This document shows positions 13,087 through 24,608 of a DNA stretch of 64,000 nt, piece by piece. The first letter of the stretch is position 1; each line of letters starts with the position of its first letter. This DNA comes from Acidobacteriaceae bacterium (GTDB lineage: Bacteria; Acidobacteriota; Terriglobia; Bryobacterales; Bryobacteraceae). The position numbers were made by a program, and so were the translations under genes. Location of the stretch: positions 1 through 64,000 of the forward strand of contig JAFAYL010000012.1 of assembly GCA_019240405.1 (NCBI GenBank), written 5' to 3'. The notes under the pieces were generated by a model. The model was not told where the DNA came from and searched no databases. It was given only the letters and a program-made list of their open reading frames with translations.

Positions 13087-15600
13087 GTGCCGGATACATT
13101 TGAAGAAACTCAAGGCGTAGCGGAGGCCACCGGGCAAGCAAGGGTGAGGTCCGAAGCCGGTGAGTCGTCGCCGCCTCCACTGGGAATCTTCGACGGGCTA
13201 GGGCGCGACTTTCGACACGCTATGCGCGCCCTATATAAGAAAGCCGGGTTCACCACGGTTGCCGTTTTGACCTTAGCGCTCGGAATTGGCGCTAACACCG
13301 CGATTTTCAGTATCGTGAACGCAGCGCTCTTAACCCCAATTCCGATTCCCCATCCGGGCCAGGTCGCGATGGTCTGGTCGGATCGCATCGCTGCCAATTC
13401 ACAAGGATTTCCAGCATCGGAGCCCGATTTTCAAGATTGGCAGGCCAGCGGCGTTTTTGAAGAACTAGCCGGCTTTATCACGGAAGGCTATAACGTGGTG
13501 ATCGGAAAGCTTCCGGAACGTGTTTCTGGAGTGTCCGTAACACGCGAATGGTTTCAAATTCAACAAGTGAAGCCGTTTGTCGGGCGATTCTTCGAAGTGG
13601 AAGATATGCGGCCCGGACACGATCATGTCGCGGTGTTGACTTATGGTTTTTGGACCTCTCACTTTAACGCGAATCCGGCAATTGTCGGGAGAAGCATCAC
13701 TATTAACAGCGCTCCCTACACGCTCATCGGAGTGTTGCCCAAAAAAATCGCGAGGCTCAGCGACGAAGAACTTTATGTTCCGTTAGTTTTCGAGCCGCCC
13801 CTGCTCAACGACCGCGGGATGCACGGCGTGTTGACAGTTGGGCGGCTCGCGCCCGGTCTCACCTTTGCAGCCGCTCAGACAAGAATACGGGACCTAAGCG
13901 CGCGTTTGGCAAAGCAGTTTCCAAAGGAGGATGGCGCGTATCGATCTCGGCTGCAGCCGATTGAAGAGGCATACGTCGAGGATGTACACAGCCTGCTTTG
14001 GGTGCTATTTGGGGCAGTGGGATTTGTGCTTCTCATCGCCTGCGCGAATATAGCGAATCTTTTGCTGGTCCGCGGTACCGCACGCCAAAAGGAGATCGCG
14101 ATTCGTACCGCGCTAGGGGCAAGCAAATGGAGACTCATCCGGCAGCTACTGACGGAAAGTGTCTTGCTGTCTTTGTTAGCCGGTGTGATCGGCATCATCC
14201 CGGCTTTTCTCGGAACTCGATTTTTCACGAAAATGCAAGTCGAACAACTGCCAAATGCCGATCTGGTCACCATGAACTTTCAAGTTCTGATTTTCACGTT
14301 GGCTTTGGCGATTGCCACCGGTCTGTTGTTCGGCCTGGTTCCGGCGTGGCAAGCGTGGAAAGCCAATGCAAACGCGCCTCTGCGAGAGCGGTCGCAAAGC
14401 TCGGGCGGGCAACGATTCGGGAATCTGTTTGTAGTGTGCGAAATCGCGTTCACAGTGGTGCTGGTCACGGGAGCGGGATTGATGCTGAGAAGCTTTCTAC
14501 ACCTGCGCTCAAAAAGTCCGGGCTACGAAGGTCAGCATACGCTCACGATGAGAATTGCTCTTACGGGGGCTCAGTACGGCACTCCCGAAACGCAGAACGC
14601 TTTCTATAAAGAGCTAGTCGCACGCGTGGAAACTTTGCCGGGAGTTGAAACCGCAGCGGTAGTGAATTGTTTACCCACCTGCGAGGACGTGCAAGGCGGA
14701 AGCCTCCAGTTTACGGACCGGCCCCAACCGAAACCGGGCGAAGCCCCTTTGGTCACAATTAGTGCCATTACTCCCGATTATTTTCGGACCATGCGGATTC
14801 CGCTGGTTGCGGGCCGGTCTTTCTCTGAACACGATGGCGCGAATGATCCTTTGGTGGTGATCATTGATCGTGAGCTCGCGCGCCAATACTGGCCGAATAG
14901 GAACCCGATCGGGCAGGTTATTGCACTCCGGCGAAAGACTCCTCCGCGCAGAATTGTTGGTGTTGTGGGGCGCGTCGACCTAAGCATCGCAGCCAAAGGC
15001 AAGGGCCGCGTCGGCCAAGTCTATATCTCAATGGCCCAGGCGCCGGAAATCGACTTGAGCTGGGGAATGTCGCTCACCGTGTCGACACCTATGGATCCCA
15101 CGACACTCGCGTCTACGGTCCGCAGGACTGTCGCGAGTCTTGCACCTGATCAGCCGGTTTTCGATGTTCAGACTATGGTGCAAGCGCGGGAGAAAGGGCA
15201 AGCCTCGGCACGCCTAGGGACTTGGCTGCTTGGCTTTTTTGCGCTCTTAGCGCTTTTGCTGGCCGCTGTTGGCGTGTACGGCGTAATTTCGTACACGGTC
15301 GGCCAGCGCACGCGTGAGATCGGGCTGCGAATGGCGGTCGGCGCTAGCCCGTTTGAGATTTTGCGCATGGTTCTCCGGCGAGGGATTTTGATGATTGCCG
15401 TAGGTATTGCGATCGGGCTAACCGGCGCAGTCGCTTTGACTCGGCTCATGCGGGCGCTGCTTCATGAGATCAGCACGACGGATCCAGCTTCGTTTTTGGG
15501 TGCCGTGCTGCTGCTCATTTTGATTGGCCTCGCAGCGTGTTACGTCCCTGCATGGCGCGCGAGCCGCGTGGATCCAACCGTGGCGCTGCGATATGAGTAG
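13087..15600 (+). CDS. Acidobacterial duplicated orphan permease (MacB/FtsX-like), without prefix domain
   Basis: An 837-aa protein with two repeated FtsX/MacB units. TM1 lies near residue 55-80 (FTTVAVLTLALGIGANTAIFS), followed by a MacB periplasmic domain. A three-helix FtsX core (about 305-420) contains the ARQKEIAIRTALGAS motif. The second unit repeats the pattern and ends with RTREIGLRMAVGASPFEIL and WRASRVDPTVALRYE. No ATPase is encoded nearby, which is typical of these permeases. Unlike the member at 50.3 kb it lacks the PadR-linked N-terminal domain and has no PadR partner. The GTG start is tentative; the first about 40 residues are low complexity. The gene is convergent with the ABC exporter operon. 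Confidence 0.85.
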   Translation: MPDTFEETQGVAEATGQARVRSEAGESSPPPLGIFDGLGRDFRHAMRALYKKAGFTTVAVLTLALGIGANTAIFSIVNAALLTPIPIPHPGQVAMVWSDRIAANSQGFPASEPDFQDWQASGVFEELAGFITEGYNVVIGKLPERVSGVSVTREWFQIQQVKPFVGRFFEVEDMRPGHDHVAVLTYGFWTSHFNANPAIVGRSITINSAPYTLIGVLPKKIARLSDEELYVPLVFEPPLLNDRGMHGVLTVGRLAPGLTFAAAQTRIRDLSARLAKQFPKEDGAYRSRLQPIEEAYVEDVHSLLWVLFGAVGFVLLIACANIANLLLVRGTARQKEIAIRTALGASKWRLIRQLLTESVLLSLLAGVIGIIPAFLGTRFFTKMQVEQLPNADLVTMNFQVLIFTLALAIATGLLFGLVPAWQAWKANANAPLRERSQSSGGQRFGNLFVVCEIAFTVVLVTGAGLMLRSFLHLRSKSPGYEGQHTLTMRIALTGAQYGTPETQNAFYKELVARVETLPGVETAAVVNCLPTCEDVQGGSLQFTDRPQPKPGEAPLVTISAITPDYFRTMRIPLVAGRSFSEHDGANDPLVVIIDRELARQYWPNRNPIGQVIALRRKTPPRRIVGVVGRVDLSIAAKGKGRVGQVYISMAQAPEIDLSWGMSLTVSTPMDPTTLASTVRRTVASLAPDQPVFDVQTMVQAREKGQASARLGTWLLGFFALLALLLAAVGVYGVISYTVGQRTREIGLRMAVGASPFEILRMVLRRGILMIAVGIAIGLTGAVALTRLMRALLHEISTTDPASFLGAVLLLILIGLAACYVPAWRASRVDPTVALRYE

Positions 15601-15612
15601 CTCGGTGCCGGC

Positions 15613-17691
15613 TTACGGATGCGCGATGACCATCAGCGTAGGCGCACGCTCAAGCGTGCATTCGAGCGCGATGCGCAGATTTTCCGGATCGAGAGCGGCA
15701 AAGCTTTCATCGAGAATGACGAGATCGGCGCGCCCCAGTAGCGCGCGGGCGATATAGATGCGGCTGCGCTCGCCATGCGAAAGCTGCCAGCCGCCCTCGC
15801 CTACCATCTGCTGCATTCCACTCGGCATCGTATCGAGAAGGTGCCCGAGCCCGAGTCTGTGGCACAACGATTCGGCATCTTGCATGTCCGCCGCGGTCGG
15901 CGGCCACCGACGCCCCATTAGTAGGTTGAAGGCGAGCGTCTCGGTAAGAATATAATTCTCGTGAAATTGCGGCGCTGCCACTACGCGCTCGCGCCAGCGA
16001 TCCGTTCCGAGCGTGTGCATGTCGAGACCATTCGAAAGCAGCAGGCCCGATTCCGGCTGGCGCATCCCGCAGAGCAGTGAAGCGAAGGTTGTCTTCCCGC
16101 CACCCGATGGACCCTCAAGCAAGATACGATCGCCTCTCTTGATGGTGAGGCTGCAAGCTTGAACGACGGGAGCGCTCTCCGTGCGATAGCGATAGGTGAG
16201 GCGGTCGGCTTCGATCACCTTGGAGGCTCCACCCGCGCAGTCCGCTTCCGCAGTTCGCATTTCGCCCAGATTCTCCGTACGCGCCGCGGCCCTGAAGAGC
16301 GGTGCGAGGCGCTTCCACACAACGAAAGCGCCGGCGATATCGGTAAGCGATACAGTCAGGCGCTTGAGCGCAGTGAAGGCTAAAAGAATCCCGCCGAGCA
16401 GAACAGCGATATGGCCCGGCGAAATTTGCGCAAGAGCGATCATCGGCGCGAGACAGGTGAGTCCGGCGACGAGCCAGCCGCGCGGGATCGCCGCAACGAG
16501 CATCGTTACAGAACGGTCGAGTGAAATTGATTTCTCGAAATAGTCATGGAGCGCCTGATCTTCAGAATCATGCCAGGCGTCGGGCTGCTGCTGCACTAAA
16601 CGTGTTCTGTGTCCGACCATGGACTCAATCAGATCGTGAGTCATTTCGAGGCGTGTATCCGTCCAGCGTTGATATCGCGCGAAAACGCGCCAAGCAAGCG
16701 CAAGCACGATTCCGAACCAAAGCACGAGCAGAAGAGCCAGTCGCCCGAGCACAAATCCGGAAGCAGCTAGCTCGATCGTCGCAAGCATACCGGCAACTGC
16801 GCCGCTGAGCGCGAGAGTTTCGACGGTTTCCGCTTCGAGCGCCTGACCAAGAAAACTGCCGATCCCTTTGCTGCGCATCTCCTCGGGACCGAGGCGCATG
16901 AGGCCGTAAAGGAGGCGCCGCTTCAGAAGTCCGCCCAAGCCTATCGCAAGCTGTCCCTGAAGTCGAGTGGTGAGTACGCGGAACGGAATCAGCGTCATCA
17001 GAATCAGCGCCCAGGCGAGAAGCCATCCGCGATCCATTCGCCCCTCGAATGACATTCGGCCCACGATGATCCACGACAAGAGCCAGAGACTGTACTGCGC
17101 TATATGCGCGATGAGCAGCGTGATCCCCTTTGGAATCGCGTTTACTTGTTTCAGCCAGGGAAACGGGCGGGCTCCCGTGGGCGGCCGAAAAATCCAGCAC
17201 TGATCAAAACGCGAGTCGCTAACCTGTTCGCGCGAGAGAAGCCGAACCGTCCGCTGTCGCCGGTTGTGTGGAATTCGGGCGGCGTCGACTAACTCCTGCA
17301 GCGAGGCGTGGATTCCGTATTCGGCTGGCTCGCGGATGATTTGGCAAACGTCCTCAATTGAGATGCACTCGGTTTTCTGAGTCGGCGTTAACACCCAAAG
17401 CTTCCGGCGATTCGCTCGCACTACGGCGAGATAAAAGGAGCTGTTGAGCCGCAGCATCGCCGGAAAAGCTGCCGGCAGTTCTTGCTCCAAATCACGGAGA
17501 CCGATTTCCACCTGGTCGGCTTCCAAACCGATGTGCTTTGAAGCGCGCTCGAGCCAGCGTCCATCCGGGTGGGGCGGGTTCTCCACCTCCACACACCGGG
17601 ACATCAATCTTGCTTTTTGAACGAGTGCCGAGAGACAGCGGCCGGCTTCTTCGGCCGACCAGGCGAACATCTCGATTTGGCCGAGGCTCAT
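15613..17691 (-). CDS. ABC half-transporter with degenerate C39-like domain (peptide exporter partner)
   Basis: The reading frame opens further upstream, but the ATG at 17691 overlaps the stop of the previous gene (TGATG), implying coupled translation and a 692-aa product. Residues about 1-190 resemble a peptidase-C39-like fold, but the positions expected for catalytic His and Asp are not conserved (SSFYLAVV, LTPTQ). The TM domain spans about 215-450. The nucleotide-binding domain has Walker A GPSGGGKTT (about 527), signature LSHGERS, Walker B LVILDES (about 658) and switch His in VIAHP. It probably pairs with the upstream C39 ABC protein as a heterodimer, as in NHLM-type bacteriocin exporters. 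Confidence 0.8.
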   Translation of the reverse strand: MSLGQIEMFAWSAEEAGRCLSALVQKARLMSRCVEVENPPHPDGRWLERASKHIGLEADQVEIGLRDLEQELPAAFPAMLRLNSSFYLAVVRANRRKLWVLTPTQKTECISIEDVCQIIREPAEYGIHASLQELVDAARIPHNRRQRTVRLLSREQVSDSRFDQCWIFRPPTGARPFPWLKQVNAIPKGITLLIAHIAQYSLWLLSWIIVGRMSFEGRMDRGWLLAWALILMTLIPFRVLTTRLQGQLAIGLGGLLKRRLLYGLMRLGPEEMRSKGIGSFLGQALEAETVETLALSGAVAGMLATIELAASGFVLGRLALLLVLWFGIVLALAWRVFARYQRWTDTRLEMTHDLIESMVGHRTRLVQQQPDAWHDSEDQALHDYFEKSISLDRSVTMLVAAIPRGWLVAGLTCLAPMIALAQISPGHIAVLLGGILLAFTALKRLTVSLTDIAGAFVVWKRLAPLFRAAARTENLGEMRTAEADCAGGASKVIEADRLTYRYRTESAPVVQACSLTIKRGDRILLEGPSGGGKTTFASLLCGMRQPESGLLLSNGLDMHTLGTDRWRERVVAAPQFHENYILTETLAFNLLMGRRWPPTAADMQDAESLCHRLGLGHLLDTMPSGMQQMVGEGGWQLSHGERSRIYIARALLGRADLVILDESFAALDPENLRIALECTLERAPTLMVIAHP

Positions 17692-20348
17692 CACGCAACC
17701 TCGCTTTCGCGCTCCTGATCGTGAACCGGTTCGGGATGCTGCTCCACGATTCTGCCCGAGTGAACATGAATGCGCCGCCACATTCGCGAGGCCCAGAGGC
17801 CGGAACGCATTTCGCGTTCCGCCTCGAGTAATTCGAGATAACGCGAGTTCGCGCTTCCGCACAATTCGCCTGGCTCCCCCTCTTCAGCGATTTGGCCCTT
17901 TTCGATCACCAGTACGCGATCGAACTGCTGAGTCTCTTCAAGGTCATGCGTGATGCACAGCAAGGTTGAGCCCCGCCAGTACTCTCGTGCCCTGCGCAGA
18001 AGCTCGCGGCGCTTCTCGCGATCCAGTCCGCGAAACGGCTCATCGAGTACAACAAGACGAGCATGCGTGTGGAGCATAGCGCGGCCAAGCCGGACGCGCT
18101 GCCCTTCGCCCCCTGAGACTAGCGCTCCACCTTCGCCGAGTTTCGTCTGCAGCCCTTGCGGCATTGCTTCGAGAACGCTCCGCAGCAGCGCGGCATCAAT
18201 GGTGCGTCCGACTGCAAGCGCTTCCTGACCCGCGCCATACACCAGGTTCGCGAAAAAAGAGCGATTCCACAGTTGCACCGCGGGATCGACCCAGGCCATC
18301 GAACGGCGCAACTGATCGCAATCGAGTGGTAAGCCGTTCACGAGAACGTTTCCCGCGCATGGCTTAAACCAGCCAAGCAGTATCCCGACCAGGCTGGATT
18401 TGCCCGCCCCGGATGGCCCGACGATAGCGATGTGCGCGCCCGGCGCAACCTGAAGATTGATGCCGTTCAGAATCCTGTGCCCGGATACCTCAACAGAGAC
18501 TTGCTGGAACTCGAGTGAAGGCGCTCTATCAAGCGGCTCGCCCATTTTTTCCGGCGTAGGCTCTTCTGGAGCGCCGAGCGGCTCTAACAGCCGAAGCGTC
18601 AGATTCCGATAGTGTGGAGATTGCCGGGTCACAGCCGCGATCTCTTGTCCAAACAACGGCAGATTCAGCGCCCAGTACACGACCAGCAAAACGCTTCCGG
18701 CGCCGGTTCCCTGAATGGAATGGCTCAAGATGAGCCACGCGACTAGGCCGAAGATCGCAGTAAGCTGCACGGCCTCCACGCTGACTACGGCTCTTTGCAG
18801 ACGCAGCGCAGCATCGCCCCATGCGCCGAGCAGTCTTTCGTGCTCGCCGCGAAGACTGCGCTCAGCGCTGTGCGCCCGAATAGCGACGAGGCCAAGCATG
18901 GCGTCCAGGTAAAAACGGGTAAGTGCCGCAGCATGGCTGCGCACGCGTAGATCGCGTTCGGTCAGAAGCGACTGCACCATGAATGCCGGTAAGAGAGCGG
19001 CGGCGACGGCGAATACAACCAAAGGCGTTGCGGCCGGCGCGAGCCATATAATGCCCGCAGCGGTCGCGCAGAGACCGAAACCCGCGCGCATGAGCTGACG
19101 AGTGAGCTCTGGCAAATTTCGGAGACGATGTGTAACATGGCTTCGCTCGGCCATATCGGAAGTGAGGCGGCTTTGGAAATAGCGATCGCCGAGTTTTGGA
19201 ATCTTTCTTAGAAATGCGAGCCGCAGACGGTTTTCAATCTGGCGGCCGATCCTCAAAACACCGGACGAGATCGGTAATTCGAGCAGAAGCACAGTAAGGC
19301 TGAACAACAACAGAGCCGCTATCGCAGCTGCGCGCTGACCGACGAGCTTCAAATCGGCGGTGACATCGAACAGAGTTCGAAACAGAAGCGCTTCGATCAC
19401 GGTCGCGCATGCCGCCAGGGCGAGCGCTGCCGTGATCGCGCTGGGGCCCAATAATCCGCTTTCACAAACAATGCGGAACAGCTCGAGGCCAGGGCTAACG
19501 GGGCGCTCGGCAACGGCAGCGGCTAATTCGGGAGTCAGATTGGGCGCTTCGGCGGGAATCGCGCTAACCGGTGAGACCCGTCCCGCGCGAATGCGGACAA
19601 GCACCGCGCCGCGCATCAGTACCTGCGCTTGCCCGTCTGTGTCGTCTGGACCGCGGCGAACCGACCAATACGCATCCGGTATAAGTTCTGCTGTTTCCAC
19701 AAGGCGCGCGATCAAGCGAGCGCTTTCGGAGCCTTTTAAACCGTGCGAATCGATCAGTGCCGTGACCAGACGCGTCGCAGCGTCGAGCGCTCCCAGCGCT
19801 TGCCAGCGAGGTTGCTCAAGAGCTTGACTTGCAAGAGACTGAATGTCGCGGCTTCGGATCCCGATATGACTGAGCCGCTCCGTAAGCGCGGCTTGGAATT
19901 CCGCCGAGCTTGCAAATTCGCGCCAGCCCTCAGCGGGAACCATCATCGTGTGGCAGAAGACTTCGTTCGTGAACTGTCGGTAACCCGTCCACCGGCGTCC
20001 CGTCGCAGGATCCATCACCTGGACAATGCGGCCGTGGAGCCGCCACGCCACAACGAAATGCGTAAGACCGTTAGGCAATTTGACAATGACGATTGCGGGT
20101 AGCGCTTTTGATTCGCCGAGCAGAAGATGATCGACAGGAAGCATGACCTGCTCAGCTTCGAGCCCTAGCTGATTGGCGACCCTCTCCATCGTGTCGATGG
20201 AAGTGCCATCAATGCCGGTTTGGCAGGCCTCGCGTAGGCGGTCATAACTTACGTGAATCCGGAAGCCCTCGAGCAAGCATTTCAGGGCTGCCGGGCCACA
20301 GTCCATGTTGGAGGTTTGGACCACCTCCGGAGCGAACAATAATCTCAA
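17691..20348 (-). CDS. C39 peptidase-containing ABC transporter (peptide maturation and export)
   Basis: An 885-aa protein whose first about 140 residues form a C39 cysteine-peptidase domain. It has Gln11, Cys17 in NMDCGPAALKCL, His97 in LTHFVVAW and Asp113 in VMDPATG, so the oxyanion Gln and the full triad are present. A linker to about 290 is followed by the TM domain (about 295-560) and an NBD with Walker A GPSGAGKSS (about 645), signature VSGGEGQRV and Walker B LVVLDEP. Such PCATs cut short leaders after double-Gly-type sites and export the core. It overlaps the HlyD-like gene upstream by four bases. The likely cargo is the pair of 16-aa peptides encoded at the operon head (inference). 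Confidence 0.88.
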   Translation of the reverse strand: MRLLFAPEVVQTSNMDCGPAALKCLLEGFRIHVSYDRLREACQTGIDGTSIDTMERVANQLGLEAEQVMLPVDHLLLGESKALPAIVIVKLPNGLTHFVVAWRLHGRIVQVMDPATGRRWTGYRQFTNEVFCHTMMVPAEGWREFASSAEFQAALTERLSHIGIRSRDIQSLASQALEQPRWQALGALDAATRLVTALIDSHGLKGSESARLIARLVETAELIPDAYWSVRRGPDDTDGQAQVLMRGAVLVRIRAGRVSPVSAIPAEAPNLTPELAAAVAERPVSPGLELFRIVCESGLLGPSAITAALALAACATVIEALLFRTLFDVTADLKLVGQRAAAIAALLLFSLTVLLLELPISSGVLRIGRQIENRLRLAFLRKIPKLGDRYFQSRLTSDMAERSHVTHRLRNLPELTRQLMRAGFGLCATAAGIIWLAPAATPLVVFAVAAALLPAFMVQSLLTERDLRVRSHAAALTRFYLDAMLGLVAIRAHSAERSLRGEHERLLGAWGDAALRLQRAVVSVEAVQLTAIFGLVAWLILSHSIQGTGAGSVLLVVYWALNLPLFGQEIAAVTRQSPHYRNLTLRLLEPLGAPEEPTPEKMGEPLDRAPSLEFQQVSVEVSGHRILNGINLQVAPGAHIAIVGPSGAGKSSLVGILLGWFKPCAGNVLVNGLPLDCDQLRRSMAWVDPAVQLWNRSFFANLVYGAGQEALAVGRTIDAALLRSVLEAMPQGLQTKLGEGGALVSGGEGQRVRLGRAMLHTHARLVVLDEPFRGLDREKRRELLRRAREYWRGSTLLCITHDLEETQQFDRVLVIEKGQIAEEGEPGELCGSANSRYLELLEAEREMRSGLWASRMWRRIHVHSGRIVEQHPEPVHDQERESEVA

Positions 20349-20839
20349 TTGCTACTCGCCAGCGCGCCAGCCGAGCGCAGAATGAGCGCTGCGGGCGAGA
20401 CACGTTCAATTTCAACTTCGACGGAACCCGGCAGCCCGTTTAAAAGAGGCATTCGAGATCTGGATTTTGAGTCGATCCAGAACTCGATGATCACGCTGCC
20501 GTCGCGAATTGTGCGTACAATCCGCGAAAGGCGGGCAGAAACACCTCCATCTTTGGACGCAAGTAAACCCCGCATATGGAAACGCGCGCTTTGGCCAGGA
20601 CGCAGCCCGCCGAGAGCAGATATCGGAAATTCGGCGACGATGCGGGGAAAGCGCTGCGATGGAGATCCGTCAATTTCGACATGAGCGGATAACGACACTT
20701 CGTAGCGGATTATTTCTGCTTTGAAGGCCCAGATGAGCCAAGCTGCTAGGAGGAGTGCGCCAATTGAGAGGCCTACTCTTGACTGCCAGCCGCCATCTCG
20801 CCGAAGCGACTGACTAACACGATGAAAACTGTTGGACAT
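20345..20839 (-). CDS. Short HlyD-like membrane fusion protein
   Basis: A 164-aa protein with one N-terminal TM helix (about 21-39, RVGLSIGALLLAAWLIWAF). A small beta-rich domain follows, with the motif PISALGGLRPGQSARFHMRG that is typical of the beta-barrel part of HlyD/EmrA adaptors. It lacks the long coiled-coil hairpin of full-length adaptors, so it is either a minimal or a reduced version. Its stop overlaps the start of the C39 ABC gene (ATGA), placing it in the same operon. It probably links the exporter to the periplasm. It follows an attenuator-like terminator, so it should be expressed less than the peptides. Confidence 0.65.
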   Translation of the reverse strand: MSNSFHRVSQSLRRDGGWQSRVGLSIGALLLAAWLIWAFKAEIIRYEVSLSAHVEIDGSPSQRFPRIVAEFPISALGGLRPGQSARFHMRGLLASKDGGVSARLSRIVRTIRDGSVIIEFWIDSKSRSRMPLLNGLPGSVEVEIERVSPAALILRSAGALASSN

Positions 20840-20853
20840 TGCAGCTTGCGGGG

Positions 20854-20917
20854 AAAAGGCCGCTCGATCAATTTGGGAAAACTGGTCAAGATTCTAAACT
20901 TTATTCGTCGAGCGGCC
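20854..20917 (-). terminator. Attenuator-like terminator between peptide genes and exporter genes
   Basis: The minus strand has a perfect 10-bp inverted repeat, GGCCGCTCGA (20908-20917) and TCGAGCGGCC (20858-20867), enclosing about 40 nt and followed by TTTT. It lies after the second peptide ORF and 15 nt before the HlyD-like start. This is the expected position for partial termination, favouring peptide mRNA over exporter mRNA. Confidence 0.55.
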
Positions 20918-20927
20918 GATAGAGTAA

Positions 20928-20978
20928 TTAACTGGCCCAAATGGACTGGCCAGCTTTCACGTTTGACTTGATTTTCAA
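20928..20978 (-). CDS. 16-aa peptide 2 of a tandem pair (putative exported signal or RiPP-like precursor)
   Basis: A TTG start at 20978 lies 7 nt after a consensus AGGAGG and encodes MKIKSNVKAGQSIWAS. It differs from peptide 1 at only four positions (V/I, S/N, R/K, D/A), yet seven shared residues use different synonymous codons, which argues for selection on the protein. A double-Gly-like AG pair at 9-10 is a possible C39 cleavage site that would release QSIWAS. It heads the exporter operon with peptide 1. The family is not one I can name. Coding status is inferred from pairwise conservation, SD quality and context. Confidence 0.7.
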   Translation of the reverse strand: MKIKSNVKAGQSIWAS

Positions 20979-21003
20979 GGCTGTTCCTCCTTTCGTAACT
21001 TGT

Positions 21004-21030
21004 GGAGCCTTGCGGGCAAGGCAAGACTCC
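21004..21030 (-). other. Hairpin upstream of peptide 2 (conserved loop)
   Basis: RNA hairpin with arms GGAGTCTTGC and GCAAGGCTCC (one T-G pair) around loop CTTGCCC, ending 25 nt before the TTG start. The hairpin ahead of peptide 1 has the same 7-nt loop and a compensatory change of the closing pair (C-G here, T-A there). It could be a regulatory or mRNA-stabilising element. Confidence 0.6.
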
Positions 21031-21059
21031 AGCAGGTACTTTGTTACGAGTTAATGAGA

Positions 21060-21110
21060 TTAGGAGTCCCAGATCGACTGGCCGGCTCTCACGCTGCTTT
21101 TAACCTTCAT
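21060..21110 (-). CDS. 16-aa peptide 1 of a tandem pair (putative exported signal or RiPP-like precursor)
   Basis: An ATG at 21110, 8 nt after AAGGAG, encodes MKVKSSVRAGQSIWDS and stops with TAA. It shares the frame, length, C-terminal AGQSIWxS block and upstream hairpin with the second copy 130 nt downstream, so the unit is a tandem duplication retained under apparent purifying selection. The ORF is far too short for standard gene finders. Downstream genes encode a C39 peptidase-transporter, which makes export with cleavage after Ala-Gly plausible (released QSIWDS). No tailoring enzyme is encoded beside it. Alternative: an uncleaved secreted peptide or a leader ORF regulating the exporter. 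Confidence 0.7.
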   Translation of the reverse strand: MKVKSSVRAGQSIWDS

Positions 21111-21140
21111 TCGTCAGGCTCCTTTCTTTTCGATATATAT

Positions 21141-21165
21141 GAGCCTTGTGGGCAAGACAAGGCTC
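21141..21165 (-). other. Hairpin upstream of peptide 1 (conserved loop)
   Basis: Perfect 9-bp stem GAGCCTTGT / ACAAGGCTC around loop CTTGCCC, 30 nt before the ATG. It matches the hairpin preceding peptide 2 in loop sequence, stem register and position. No U tract follows directly, so it is not a simple terminator. Confidence 0.6.
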
Positions 21166-21177
21166 GGAAATCTTAAG

Positions 21178-21208
21178 CCGATATAGAGAGAAAATCCGCT
21201 TATATCGG
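21178..21208 (-). other. Inverted repeat in the peptide-operon leader
   Basis: CCGATATA (21201-21208, minus strand) pairs perfectly with TATATCGG (21178-21185) across 15 nt, in the AT-rich leader between the promoter and the first conserved hairpin. It may be an RNA structure or a regulator site. No partner is recognised. Confidence 0.35.
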
Positions 21209-21266
21209 GAAATTCTTCAGTTTATTTTGAGATTTTTGGCTCTAAAATTTTTTGATTTGTGAAGCC

Positions 21267-21294
21267 AGTATAGCGAGATTCGCACCTTAGTCAA
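21267..21294 (-). promoter_or_regulatory. Predicted promoter of the peptide-export operon
   Basis: Minus-strand TTGACT (21289-21294), 16-nt spacer, TATACT (21267-21272); both hexamers match 5/6. Transcription would start near 21260, giving about 150 nt of AT-rich leader before the first peptide ORF. The low GC of this stretch contrasts with its surroundings. Confidence 0.6.
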
Positions 21295-21394
21295 ATAGCT
21301 TGGAGGCGCTAAGCTGGTAGGATTTATCCTATACAGGTACTGGGTACTTTTGCCGTACCGCGCTGCAATCCGGATGCAAATTTCAGTTTGGAAA

Positions 21395-23344
21395 TTACTC
21401 CGCTTTAGGCTCGCGCTGCAGTAAGTAAGTCTCGACAAACTCTGCAGTCGCAGCGGCGAGGAAATCTCGATTCCGCTTCTTCACAAAACCGTGCCCCTCG
21501 TCTTCGGCGAGTAAATACCAGACCGGTACATTGTTTTTTCGCAGTGCTTCGGTCATTTGTTGACCTTCGGTGTAAGGAACGCGCGGATCGTTTCGGCCCG
21601 CGACGATAAACATCGGCTTCGTGATTTTTGCCGCATTGTTCAGCGGCGAGATAGTTTCGAAGAAATCCCGCATCTTCGGATCCCGCTCGTCTCCGTATTC
21701 AACCCGGCGGAGGTCGCGCCGGTAAGATTCCGTGTGCTCGAGAAACGTTCGGAAATTGCTGATCCCGACCTGCTCAACAGCACAGCGGACGCGATAGCTG
21801 TAATGTGTCATCGTGGCAAGCGTCATGTACCCGCCATAACTGCCGCCCGTGACCATAATGCGATTCGAATCGAGCTCCGGCTGCGCTTTGATCCAGTCGA
21901 GTAGCGCGCCAATATCCTTGACCGAATCTTCACGCTTCATTCCGTTGTCGAGGTTCAGGTACGTCTTGCCGTAGCCCGTCGATCCGCGGACATTGGGAAA
22001 GATCACGGCCACACCCAGTTCATTCATGTAATAATTCACCGCGCCCAAATAGCTGGGCCGGAATTGGCCTTCCGGACCGCCATGAATGTCGATAATTACC
22101 GGGCGCGCTCCGGTGTAACGCATAGCCGCCGGATACAGGAAGCCGGAAATGGACAGGCCGTCAAACGATTTCCAGTGAATAAGCTTAGGCTCTGGGAATT
22201 GAGAAGCATTGAGCCCACCCGTTTCGCTGTAGGTCCATCGATCGAGCTGCTTGGTATCGATGTTCAGCGAGTAAACGTCGCCGGGCGTGTGAGCGGATGC
22301 AAGCGTGAAGCCGATTTCGTGTCCCATGGGGCGCCAACGCAGACCTGAAATGACCCCGGACGGAATATCCGGCAGCGCGATGTCTTTGCGGGAACGCGCG
22401 TCAAAGACGTGCAGCTTGCCATAGCCGCCTTCATCGACTAGATAGCCCACGTAGCGGCCGTCGCGCGAGACATCGAGATCGTCCAGGTCCCAATGCAGGT
22501 CAGATCGAAGGACGGTCGGCTTCTTCGCGGCGAAATCGATGTACGCAAGCTGGCGGTAATCGCTGTTCGCGTTCGATACAACGAAAGCCCCTTTACCGTC
22601 GTTCGCGAATTTCGCGCTAAACCAGCCGCTGTCCGGAGCATCCGGACCCAGCTTTGTCTTCCGGCCAGACGATACGTCCAGTAGATACAGTTCGCTCACA
22701 ACTGCAGATCGATCGAGCGTGAGGAGAATCTGTTTGCCGTCTTCGGACCAGTCGCTTACCGACCAACCCGGCTCGCTGGTTTGGAGGAGAATGCGCGCGG
22801 ATTTAGGGTCACGGGGTTCGACTAGCCAGATATCGGCGTTCGTCCCGTCCCGCGCAGTCGAGCTGTACGCGATCTGCTTGCCATCTCGCGACCAAACAGG
22901 GCCCGTGTTGCGCGAGCGCCCGCCTTTTGTAAGCAACGTGATATTTCCGGTTCGAAGATCCAGAATATACAGCTGAAAGAACTCGCCGCCACCGGTATCC
23001 TTGGCGAAAACCAGCTCGTCACCGTTCGCAGGATTGAACAGACCCCCGGCGACGCGATCCGGAAAGAAGGTGAGCTGACGCCGGTCGCCACCCGGCATGG
23101 CAACACGATGAAGCTGAGGAACGTCGCCGAAGCGCGTAGAGATCAGAATTTCGCGCCGGGAAGGGCCCCAGTCGAGCAGCGCGGCGGAACGGGATTCGTT
23201 GTAGCGGTTCACTTCATCGAAGAGCGCGCGCGGAATTTCGGGCAGGCCGTCGGGTTTCAAATTAGAGGGCACGGGCAGAGGGGCGTCGGCAGCATGGAGA
23301 AGGGCAAAATTGAGCGATAGAATCAGCAGGACAGAGAGGCGCAT
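21395..23344 (-). CDS. S9-family prolyl oligopeptidase-like serine peptidase, secreted
   Basis: The frame is open further upstream, but the ATG at 23344 begins a good signal peptide (MRLSVLLILSLNFALLHAADA), giving 649 aa. An N-terminal TolB/WD-like beta-propeller (about 35-370, with repeated DG-K/IAYSS and SRDGRYVGYL strands) precedes an alpha/beta-hydrolase domain. That domain carries the nucleophile motif GGSYGGYM (Ser about 502), Asp in GRNDPRVP and His in DEGHGF. The family removes dipeptides or acyl-amino acids from short peptides. It is the last gene before the peptide-exporter promoter and reads in the same direction, but any link to the 16-aa peptides is speculative. Confidence 0.88.
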   Translation of the reverse strand: MRLSVLLILSLNFALLHAADAPLPVPSNLKPDGLPEIPRALFDEVNRYNESRSAALLDWGPSRREILISTRFGDVPQLHRVAMPGGDRRQLTFFPDRVAGGLFNPANGDELVFAKDTGGGEFFQLYILDLRTGNITLLTKGGRSRNTGPVWSRDGKQIAYSSTARDGTNADIWLVEPRDPKSARILLQTSEPGWSVSDWSEDGKQILLTLDRSAVVSELYLLDVSSGRKTKLGPDAPDSGWFSAKFANDGKGAFVVSNANSDYRQLAYIDFAAKKPTVLRSDLHWDLDDLDVSRDGRYVGYLVDEGGYGKLHVFDARSRKDIALPDIPSGVISGLRWRPMGHEIGFTLASAHTPGDVYSLNIDTKQLDRWTYSETGGLNASQFPEPKLIHWKSFDGLSISGFLYPAAMRYTGARPVIIDIHGGPEGQFRPSYLGAVNYYMNELGVAVIFPNVRGSTGYGKTYLNLDNGMKREDSVKDIGALLDWIKAQPELDSNRIMVTGGSYGGYMTLATMTHYSYRVRCAVEQVGISNFRTFLEHTESYRRDLRRVEYGDERDPKMRDFFETISPLNNAAKITKPMFIVAGRNDPRVPYTEGQQMTEALRKNNVPVWYLLAEDEGHGFVKKRNRDFLAAATAEFVETYLLQREPKAE

Positions 23345-23405
23345 ATCGGGTTCGATTGTAGCGAAAACCGGCGCTGCTGGATCAAGAGTTTCGTAGGAGG
23401 ATGCG

Positions 23406-23858
23406 ATGGCTGTTACGGTGAAGCCGATCAAGCTTTGGAGAAAAGAGATTGAGAACAAGCCAGGGGAATTGGCTCAGACATTGGAGCCGCTGGCGCGCGC
23501 GGGAGCCGACTTGCAGATTGTGATGGGCTATCGGTATCCGGGGCACGAGGAAAGGGCGGCAATTGAGCTTCACCCCATCGAAAGCAAGAAGCTCAGTTCG
23601 ACGGCTACAGCGGCCGGATTGCATGACGCCTCGATCGCAGCGCTACTGGTCGAAGGCGATAACCGTCCTGGCTTGGGGCACGGCATAACCGAGGCGCTCG
23701 CGCGAGCGGGAATCAACCTTGATTTCCTGGTGGCGCACGTCATGGGGCGGAGATATTCGGCGGTGCTTGGATTTGATAACCAAGCGGATTTGAAGAAGGC
23801 GACTCCGCTGATCAAGAAAGCGGCGGCCGCAAAACCGGCGAGGAAACGGGCGCGCTAG
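23406..23858 (+). CDS. Tandem ACT-domain protein
   Basis: A 150-aa protein with two ACT-like modules. The first has KEIENKPGELAQTLEPLARAGADLQIV (about 13-40) and the second VEGDNRPGLGHGITEALARAGINLDFL (about 83-110). Each shows the PG-L turn and the helix typical of amino-acid-binding regulatory domains. A basic tail (KKAAAAKPARKRAR) ends it. Stand-alone ACT proteins usually sense amino acids or regulate an enzyme; no partner is encoded nearby. An SD-like AGGAGG lies just before the ATG. It is divergent from the S9 peptidase and convergent with glpF. Confidence 0.7.
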   Translation: MAVTVKPIKLWRKEIENKPGELAQTLEPLARAGADLQIVMGYRYPGHEERAAIELHPIESKKLSSTATAAGLHDASIAALLVEGDNRPGLGHGITEALARAGINLDFLVAHVMGRRYSAVLGFDNQADLKKATPLIKKAAAAKPARKRAR

Positions 23859-23879
23859 CAACGTCGAAAGCTTGGTCGC

Positions 23880-24608
23880 TCAGATTCCAGTCACACGGAT
23901 GAAGAGCGCCGCGATCGCGGCTCCGCAAATCGGACCAAAGATGGGCACCCACGCATAGCTCCAATCCGAAGGGCCTTTCCCGGATATGGGTAGAAACGTG
24001 TGAGCTAGCCTGGGCCCAAGATCGCGTGCTGGGTTAATGGCGTAGCCGGTCGTCCCACCCAGAGAAAGGCCGATGCTCCACACCAAAGCGCCGACGAGCA
24101 CCGGACCGAGCCCCGGTGCAATTCCTCCAGGGGCAAGACGTCGGGAAACGAGAGAGCTCGCCACAAGCACCAACACAAATGTCGCGATAACTTCGCTCAA
24201 GAAATTACTAAACGGCTTTCGGATCGCAGGGCCAGTTGAAAAGCATGCCAATTTTTTCTCGGCGCTCTGTGTGACGTCCCAGTGCGGCAGATAAAAAAGC
24301 CAGACTAGGACGGCGCCGATAAACGCGCCCAGGATCTGAGCCGGAATATAAGTCAGAAGCCGGCGATAATGGCCGGTCATCAGAACAGAAGCAACCGTAA
24401 AAGCCGGGTTGATGTGCGCATCGGCATCGCCAATCGAAATGCTCACCGCCACAGCCGAAAACACCGCGAGTCCCCATCCGACGCTAATGGTTAGCCATCC
24501 GCTGCCTTCAGCTTTCGAACGGCTCAGCAACACACCTCCAACGACCCCATTTCCTAAAAGGATCAGGATCATGGTCCCGACGAATTCACCGAGCATAGCG
24601 CTGTCCAT
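23880..24608 (-). CDS. glpF: Glycerol facilitator (MIP/aquaporin family)
   Basis: A 242-aa six-helix channel with both half-helix motifs: NPA at 67-69 (DADAHINPAF) and NPARD at 192-196. The Asp after NPAR is characteristic of glycerol facilitators rather than water-only aquaporins. It allows glycerol and similar polyols across the inner membrane. It lies 39 nt downstream of glpK on the same strand, forming a kinase-facilitator operon that traps glycerol as glycerol-3-phosphate. Confidence 0.9.
   Translation of the reverse strand: MDSAMLGEFVGTMILILLGNGVVGGVLLSRSKAEGSGWLTISVGWGLAVFSAVAVSISIGDADAHINPAFTVASVLMTGHYRRLLTYIPAQILGAFIGAVLVWLFYLPHWDVTQSAEKKLACFSTGPAIRKPFSNFLSEVIATFVLVLVASSLVSRRLAPGGIAPGLGPVLVGALVWSIGLSLGGTTGYAINPARDLGPRLAHTFLPISGKGPSDWSYAWVPIFGPICGAAIAALFIRVTGI

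Follow-up and report, generated by a model that had tools for sequence, protein, structure and literature searches.

The peptide genes and the exporter operon of the window

The window considered here is a stretch of 64,000 nucleotides from an Acidobacteriaceae bacterium (contig JAFAYL010000012.1), in which two very short genes lie on the minus strand upstream of exporter genes, namely peptide gene 1 at 21060..21110 (-), encoding MKVKSSVRAGQSIWDS with residues 1-10 taken as leader and 11-16 as variable part, and peptide gene 2 at 20928..20978 (-), encoding MKIKSNVKAGQSIWAS from a TTG start. Shine-Dalgarno (SD)-like sequences are found before each of them, AAAGGAG at 21119..21125 (-), 8 bases upstream of gene 1, and AAAGGAGG at 20986..20993 (-), 7 bases upstream of gene 2, as proposed in a preliminary description of this DNA, which had also placed two 17-codon ORFs correctly as to position, save that the second starts with TTG and not ATG. 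Both peptides are 16 amino acids (aa) long and share 75% identity; of the 16 codons, 4 are the same in both genes, 7 show synonymous differences and 5 specify another residue (pS 0.83, pN 0.23), which bears out the earlier claim that seven residues are kept through synonymous codons.

An inverted repeat with a 9 bp stem and a 7-nt loop lies upstream of gene 1 at 21141..21165 (-), and another one with a 10 bp stem and a 7-nt loop lies between both peptide genes, upstream of gene 2, at 21004..21030 (-). Such hairpins precede 7 of the 10 peptide genes compared in the window's genus (besides the window, at loci L034, L036, L038, L120 and L149), about 10-15 bases ahead of the SD, and the letters of their stems vary between genomes. 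As the stem alignment contained an indel and paired better when slid by +1, a count of covariation was set aside and only single hairpins are relied upon. A search of window positions 15000-24000 against Rfam gave no match at E<=1. The S9 peptidase gene upstream of the window pair was rejected as a conserved neighbour, loci L032-L282 yielding only two stretches with it, both of the window genome.

Downstream of the peptide genes come a short HlyD-like protein of 164 aa (20345..20839, -), a C39 peptidase-ABC exporter half of 885 aa (17691..20348, -), 41-63% identical to its relatives, and a second ABC half-transporter of 749 aa as called (15613..17862, -), whose actual start codon may be further downstream, given the overlap with the C39-ABC gene; this operon order is the one given in the preliminary description. 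The 164-aa protein matches no Pfam or NCBIfam model and is called HlyD-like because its 384-aa homologue in genome G128 matches HlyD_3 and HlyD_D23; the window protein is devoid of about 220 middle residues of these 384-aa forms, including most of the stretch spanned by the HlyD_D23 match in the G128 protein (residues 64-340). Short HlyD-like forms of 139-166 aa recur, within the aligned set, in two genomes of genus g35 and two Anaerolineae (L051, L124, L173, L205), likewise without most of the HlyD_D23 part.

Regarding the C39-ABC protein, the catalytic residues C17, H97 and D113 are intact, as had been claimed, and align with the PCAT1 domain; among 59 full-length exporter homologues they are kept in 58, 59 and 59 sequences, respectively. 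Acidic residues are also found at positions 47 (Asp, 59/59), 52 (Asp, 53/59) and 55 (Glu, 55/59, plus one Asp), where the aligned counterparts in PCAT1 are Gln, Tyr and Ile, and the residues at 52 and 55 would suit a lysine-rich, basic leader held in the groove. The best NCBIfam score of the C39-ABC protein is with NHLM_micro_ABC1 (TIGR03796), at 190 bits against a curated cut-off of 853, and the second ABC half scores best with CydC (133 bits), followed by CydD and by NHLM_micro_ABC2 (TIGR03797, 118 bits, curated cut-off 709), all below cut-off; because of these scores, the operon is described as NHLM-like in layout and is not assigned to that family.

Conservation of the peptide genes within the acidobacterial family

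A profile built from the two window peptides, at the loose limit of E<=1, matched 51 of 150 genomes of the family, and the loci read after this search contain 16-aa ORFs preceded by SD-like sites and frequently arranged in tandem, the largest array counting five. With a 15-row profile at E<=0.05, matches were obtained in 35 of 237 genomes from the acidobacterial family to which the window belongs, and in every one of the 35 a leader-type ORF with an SD-like 4-mer occurs at least once; after permutation of its columns, this 15-row profile matched 2 of the 237, within frames of 298 and 1139 codons. Both 16-aa ORFs of the window are real, conserved protein-coding genes. In the window's genus, a peptide gene stands before the HlyD-like or exporter genes in seven genomes (G000, G128, G101, G548, G550, G575, G578).

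Many of these peptides carry a tryptophan near their end and are referred to here as W-type. A filter applied to the loci in hand accepted ORFs of 14-17 aa with M-[KR], [STN] at position 5, [VIL] at 7 and [AGS]G at 9-10, provided that an SD-like site preceded them and that the tail contained a Trp, Gly10 and the length range being entry conditions. It returned 46 ORFs from 24 genomes, of which 36 are distinct and 34 of these are 16 aa long; longer W-type ORFs of 20-22 aa occur at L039, L048 and L049. Among the 34 distinct 16-mers, Trp is at position 14 in all (a Trp in the tail was demanded on entry), Gly is at position 15 in 27, and positions 9-10 read AG in 26, SG in 7 and GG in 1, [AGS]G being demanded on entry. 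The six-residue remainder in relatives is mostly of the form xx[IV]WG[TDS], as compared with QSIWDS and QSIWAS in the window. Gln is found at position 11 in only 3 of the 34, so that the N-terminal Gln able to form pyroglutamate, put forward for the window peptides, does not extend to the family as a general feature.

Selective constraint is uneven along the peptide. The pooled pN/pS over ten ORFs of the window's genus, a set that leaves out a 20-mer, a 15-mer and an ORF found later in G550, amounts to 0.21 in the leader part (residues 2-10) and to 0.61 in the tail (residues 11-16).

A common leader unit with variable cores in several phyla

Residues 1-10, MKxK[ST]xVKAG, form a unit that recurs before unrelated tails, the W-type tails, often giving 16 aa overall with Trp14, being one group among others. 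When the named genome collection was scanned with a DNA pattern covering the leader only (MK[VIL]K[TS]N[VIL]KAG), 67 matches in 48 stretches were obtained, 65 of them with an SD-like 4-mer, as against 15% of random ATGs (287/1888). Going by record titles, the unit is present in six phyla, the taxa being Acidobacteria, Anaerolineae/Chloroflexi, Myxococcota, Gammaproteobacteria (Methylobacter, Thiodictyon, Methyloglobulus and others), Deltaproteobacteria/Desulfobacterales and Planctomycetota; a match in a Micrarchaeota genome, within a 300-aa frame and without SD, was treated as chance.

The tails behind the leader range from 5 to 147 residues and comprise W-types, NHNQ types, Cys-rich types and others. 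In Anaerolineae, the W-type MKVKTNVKAGSVNWG is encoded once at L189 and three times at L205, directly upstream of HlyD-like and C39-ABC genes. A 28-aa ORF, MKVETDVKAGGAIWVGDGRGNHNETIVG, combines a W-type tail with an NHNE-type tail. In multi-core precursors, the leader unit recurs internally as a spacer between cores, e.g. in an 86-aa ORF with four repeats at L134 and a 93-aa ORF at L269, as well as at L185, L186, L193 and L200. The very short precursor in a tandem pair, as first described, is therefore right for the window and too narrow for the family, since precursors with the same leader reach 157 residues and tandem genes are one of many arrangements.

Some longer leaders end in a similar unit (G399, G628, G631). 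Those of genus g48 end in ...T[AK].T[SN][VI]RAG (L128 12781-12870 and 13097-13189; L130 57-149 and 1713-1799) and are possibly a link to canonical double-glycine leaders. Besides, a GKxCGCKQRQExLN tail is common to two precursors, one from Desulfobacterales and one from Anaerolineales (L176 338; L215 1028-1246).

Searched against Pfam and NCBIfam, 12 precursors gave weak matches only, none at cut-off, the two window 16-mers being joined into one 32-residue query to reach the 20-residue minimum, and tblastn of one NHNQ-type 31-mer against plasmids gave no match. Searches of a library of published papers for leader strings brought up no relevant paper among the matches listed, as judged by title, those for KTNVKA being unrelated by title, several of them about haemoglobin peptides; topic searches listed PCAT papers whose titles and abstract openings mention no such peptide family. 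Similar hypothetical proteins of the KVKTNVKAG...NHNE kind occur in public annotation. Taken as a whole, this is an uncatalogued family of small peptides in several bacterial phyla, made of a ten-residue leader and a variable remainder.

Co-occurrence of the peptides and the exporter

Conservation alongside the same exporter, on which the preliminary description had staked its reading, was found: searching the 237 family genomes for the C39-ABC protein at E<=1e-60 gave 35 with the exporter, to be set against the 35 with the peptide profile, and 27 have both where about 5 would be expected (Fisher p = 1.6e-21). This p value is inflated because the genomes are related; at the genus level, where 13 genera are shared out of 16 peptide and 16 exporter genera among 76, p is 1.8e-9, which lessens the inflation only in part. 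The exporter tracks the peptides even where the peptide genes lie elsewhere in the genome. In the 20 both-positive genomes outside the window's genus, a leader ORF is present in the fetched exporter neighbourhood in 6 (G030, G034, G067, G073, G102, G603) and in none of the other 14, some of which are explained by contig ends; in G064, assembled in four contigs, a single contig holds the exporter at 89 kb and the peptides at 1,024 and 1,515 kb.

Discordant genomes were inspected in both directions. Of the eight exporter-only family genomes, seven have a leader-type ORF by a looser, partly by-eye search (G143, G021, G578, G148, G628, G631, G093), and the same search found none in G104. The exporter search was negative in seven of the 8 peptide-only genomes among the 35 (G009, G049, G075, G545, G594, G602, G627); the eighth, G050, has a 3-kb contig with HlyD pieces and is the only one of the eight with a visible excuse.

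Beyond the family, 30 of the 48 pattern-scan loci, representing 29 genomes, were searched for the exporter at E<=1e-40, with 23 of 29 positive (23 of 28 without the archaeal chance match) compared with 13 of 396 genomes drawn from the phylum, a comparison in which the pattern genomes span phyla and the control a single phylum, nine loci were already known to lie beside an exporter, and at least three genomes, G642, G656 and G663, repeat family ones (same places or peptides). Conversely, 8 of the 12 exporter-bearing genomes of the phylum draw that are not the window's own have a leader-type ORF, partly recognised by eye (G210, G270, G378, G399, G462, G299, G163, G498); no peptide was found in G154, for which a short stretch was read, nor in G516, G528 and G532. 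Three of the six non-own matches of the phylum search (G286, G330, G396) were not counted, no short leader ORF being found there on checking. With a leader-only profile at E<=1, short-frame matches appeared in 4 of 13 genomes that bear the exporter and had given no profile match before, and in 0 of 39 exporter-free genomes, where the two matches obtained are both in frames of >500 codons.

Proposed mechanism

The conserved coding ORFs and their joint occurrence with the exporter (27 genomes shared) make the view that the peptides are substrates of the C39 exporter, as initially suggested, a well backed one. Both ORFs would encode precursors of short peptides, the C39 domain cutting after the leader and the HlyD/C39-ABC/ABC machinery exporting the remainder, a prediction from sequence to which a probability of about three in four is given. 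Residues 1-10 would act as a minimal, basic export leader recognised by the C39 domain of the C39-ABC protein, the cut would fall after Ala-Gly (or the Ser-Gly and Gly-Gly variants), and the pair formed by the C39-ABC protein and the second ABC half, together with the HlyD-like protein, would secrete the six-residue peptide, QSIWDS or QSIWAS, from the cytoplasm. Peptide genes located away from the exporter locus would, in many relatives, depend on that same exporter, and further precursors would pair the same leader unit with different cores, sometimes repeating it as a spacer. Leader recognition, cleavage site and export are inferred. The placing of the leader/core border at Ala-Gly 9-10, already proposed for the window, is supported by the weaker conservation beyond it and by the recurrence of this unit inside multi-core precursors.

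In its most general form, the scheme could amount to a hitherto undescribed multi-phylum peptide secretion code, i.e. a basic ten-residue address, MKxKTxVKAG, read by an acidic C39 groove and placed on dozens of unrelated cores (orphan genes, tandem arrays and multi-core chains), by which Acidobacteriota and further bacteria, environmental ones for the most part, would signal under FHA-sigma54 control; this wider proposal is a tentative one, to which roughly one chance in three is given.

Regulation, neighbouring genes and alternative explanations

A homologue of an FHA-GAF-sigma54 activator is divergent from a leader-peptide gene in 11 genomes of 6 genera (G107, G064, G028, G034, G073, G590, G140, G121, G088, G627, G093; loci L040, L041, L044, L051, L125, L153, L154, L156/L279, L276, L277, L278). 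All three domains are present in 10 of the 10 activators scanned, the eleventh, from G107, being 94% identical to that of G064, and the flanked peptide locus is W-type in 10 of 11, the exception being G073. A -24/-12-like site (TGG-N9-TTGC-like) faces the peptide gene in 9 of the 11 loci, 42-57 bases upstream of the start codon in eight and 98 in G088, with no near site before the peptide in G064 and G107; as scored with our own weights against 500 mononucleotide shuffles, the site score is reached by 0-21 of 500 shuffles in eight of the nine and by 116 of 500 in G590. In the direction of the activator, a site of equal quality is present in G140, and scores are lower in the other ten intergenic regions. 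Among six loci without the activator, G023 has a site at -54 (5/500), the window a weak one at -256 (45/500) and four have none. Expression therefore looks regulated, given the divergent activator in 11 genomes and the -24/-12-like site in nine; in the window and its genus, no such activator occurs in the stretches read.

Other regulatory genes are found in the vicinity. A kinesin-light-chain-like TPR_12 protein, identified by a Pfam run on four of the proteins, lies near exporter or leader-peptide genes at L125, L128, L130, L133, L134, L139, L140, L145 and L147, and also at L050 and L200. In Anaerolineae, NB-ARC/TPR or BTAD/NB-ARC regulators neighbour exporter or leader-peptide genes (L173, L189, L205). 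ECF sigma factors (PF07638) and/or Ser/Thr kinases, which are common genes, lie close to leader peptides or exporters at L161, L195, L200, L135 and L143.

That the released peptides are signals is speculative. Such a role would add a function to the export reading: the W-containing hexapeptides would be pheromones sensed by receptors, with production switched by the phospho-dependent activator, a scenario rated somewhat short of an even chance. It draws on the divergent activator and its peptide-ward sites, on Trp14 being invariant in the 34 distinct 16-mers (subject to the entry condition given above), on TPR proteins near 9 of the 32 exporter loci clustered and on the NB-ARC/TPR or BTAD regulators that accompany the exporter at three Anaerolineae loci. 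However, no receptor is conserved alongside the W-type peptides, the activator is missing from the stretches read in the very genus of the window, genes for TPR proteins, kinases and sigma factors occur commonly, and the sites themselves are ambiguous in G140, G064, G107 and G590, while G023 has one without the activator.

An antimicrobial or other RiPP function, in which enzymes encoded elsewhere would modify the cores and these would leave the cell as bacteriocins, is considered unlikely. The diversity of cores under one leader, several per genome, including Cys-rich and NHNQ cores, would fit it, as would a locus on the Piscinibacter plasmid NZ_CP136338 (L032 7356-9221), where an exporter homologue (39%) and a 57-aa ORF containing KVNVKLGPIPF lie beside an MbnB/TglH/ChrH-family protein, with MoeB and ThiS-family genes near, and which is perhaps a modified relative. 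Against it, six-residue cores leave few sites for modification and, among the clustered neighbours of W-type loci, no candidate modifying or immunity gene family recurs (the singletons being mostly unannotated), in line with the initial remark that no modifying enzyme is present.

Export of the whole peptide, or cleavage by another protease with Ala-Gly merely part of the export signal, is about as improbable as the former: Ala-Gly is not a standard double-glycine site and canonical leader residues are missing, but the C39 triad is kept in nearly all of the 59 exporter homologues, tails diverge after Gly10 and the leader unit is reused between cores. Much less probable is attenuation, whereby regulatory leader ORFs would control the downstream exporter genes and the peptide itself would be inert; within the window's genus, the ORFs are commonly located ahead of the exporter, with hairpins upstream, but many copies are distant from the exporter, arrays count up to five, and leader residues are conserved across phyla. 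Chance ORFs, for which the very short length could speak, are a negligible prospect in view of the scrambled control and of the SD-like sites before 65 of 67 pattern matches.

Significance and comparison with known systems

Substrates of C39 exporters are usually sought via canonical double-glycine leaders and among genes of a length that gene callers accept. PMC10986499 describes the substrate of HetC as an open question. The peptide family reported here supplies a searchable leader for one exporter clade and predicts exact mature peptides, QSIWDS and QSIWAS in the case of the window, by which peptide secretion in Acidobacteriota, Anaerolineae and others becomes directly testable. To our knowledge, no peptide communication has been described in the phyla concerned, and it would be opened in these additional phyla if the regulated W-peptides were signals.

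The closest comparison is with double-glycine leader peptides and their C39 PCAT/AMS exporters, such as ComC/ComA, LahA/LahT, PCAT1 and microcin V. Common to both are a C39-ABC protein with intact triad, a constant leader ending in a small-residue motif, a variable core and several precursors per exporter. In contrast, the leader here is only 10 residues long, basic and mostly ending in Ala-Gly, many precursors are distant from the exporter, the leader unit is reused as a spacer, and of the two ABC halves only one carries an intact C39 domain. According to PMC10885120, hydrophobic residues occupy positions -4, -7 and -12 of canonical leaders, which terminate in GG, GA or GS; LahT needs those at -7 and -12. 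The leaders of the 16-mers have V, I or L at -4 (an entry condition, yet true of the window pair), a K, T, R, N or Q at -7 in 34/34 and no position -12 at all, hence no hydrophobic residue at -7 or -12, and they mostly end in Ala-Gly instead of GG, GA or GS.

The layout of NHLM exporters is HlyD + C39-ABC + ABC half, and the same three-part arrangement is found here, as in the NHLM/NHLP bacteriocin exporters (TIGR03796, TIGR03797, with HlyD). Unlike NHLP-type leaders, which have >70 residues according to PMC10885120, the leader here has 10. Scores are also far under the cut-offs (190/853 and 118/709 bits), with the second half slightly favouring CydC.

Lastly, RNPP/SHP-type pheromones are made from very short precursor genes, as short mature peptides with TPR receptors. 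While, unlike in these systems, a C39 exporter is present here and no adjacent receptor is conserved with the W-type genes, the very short precursor genes, the short predicted mature peptide and the possible TPR receptors are features that the present family would share with them.
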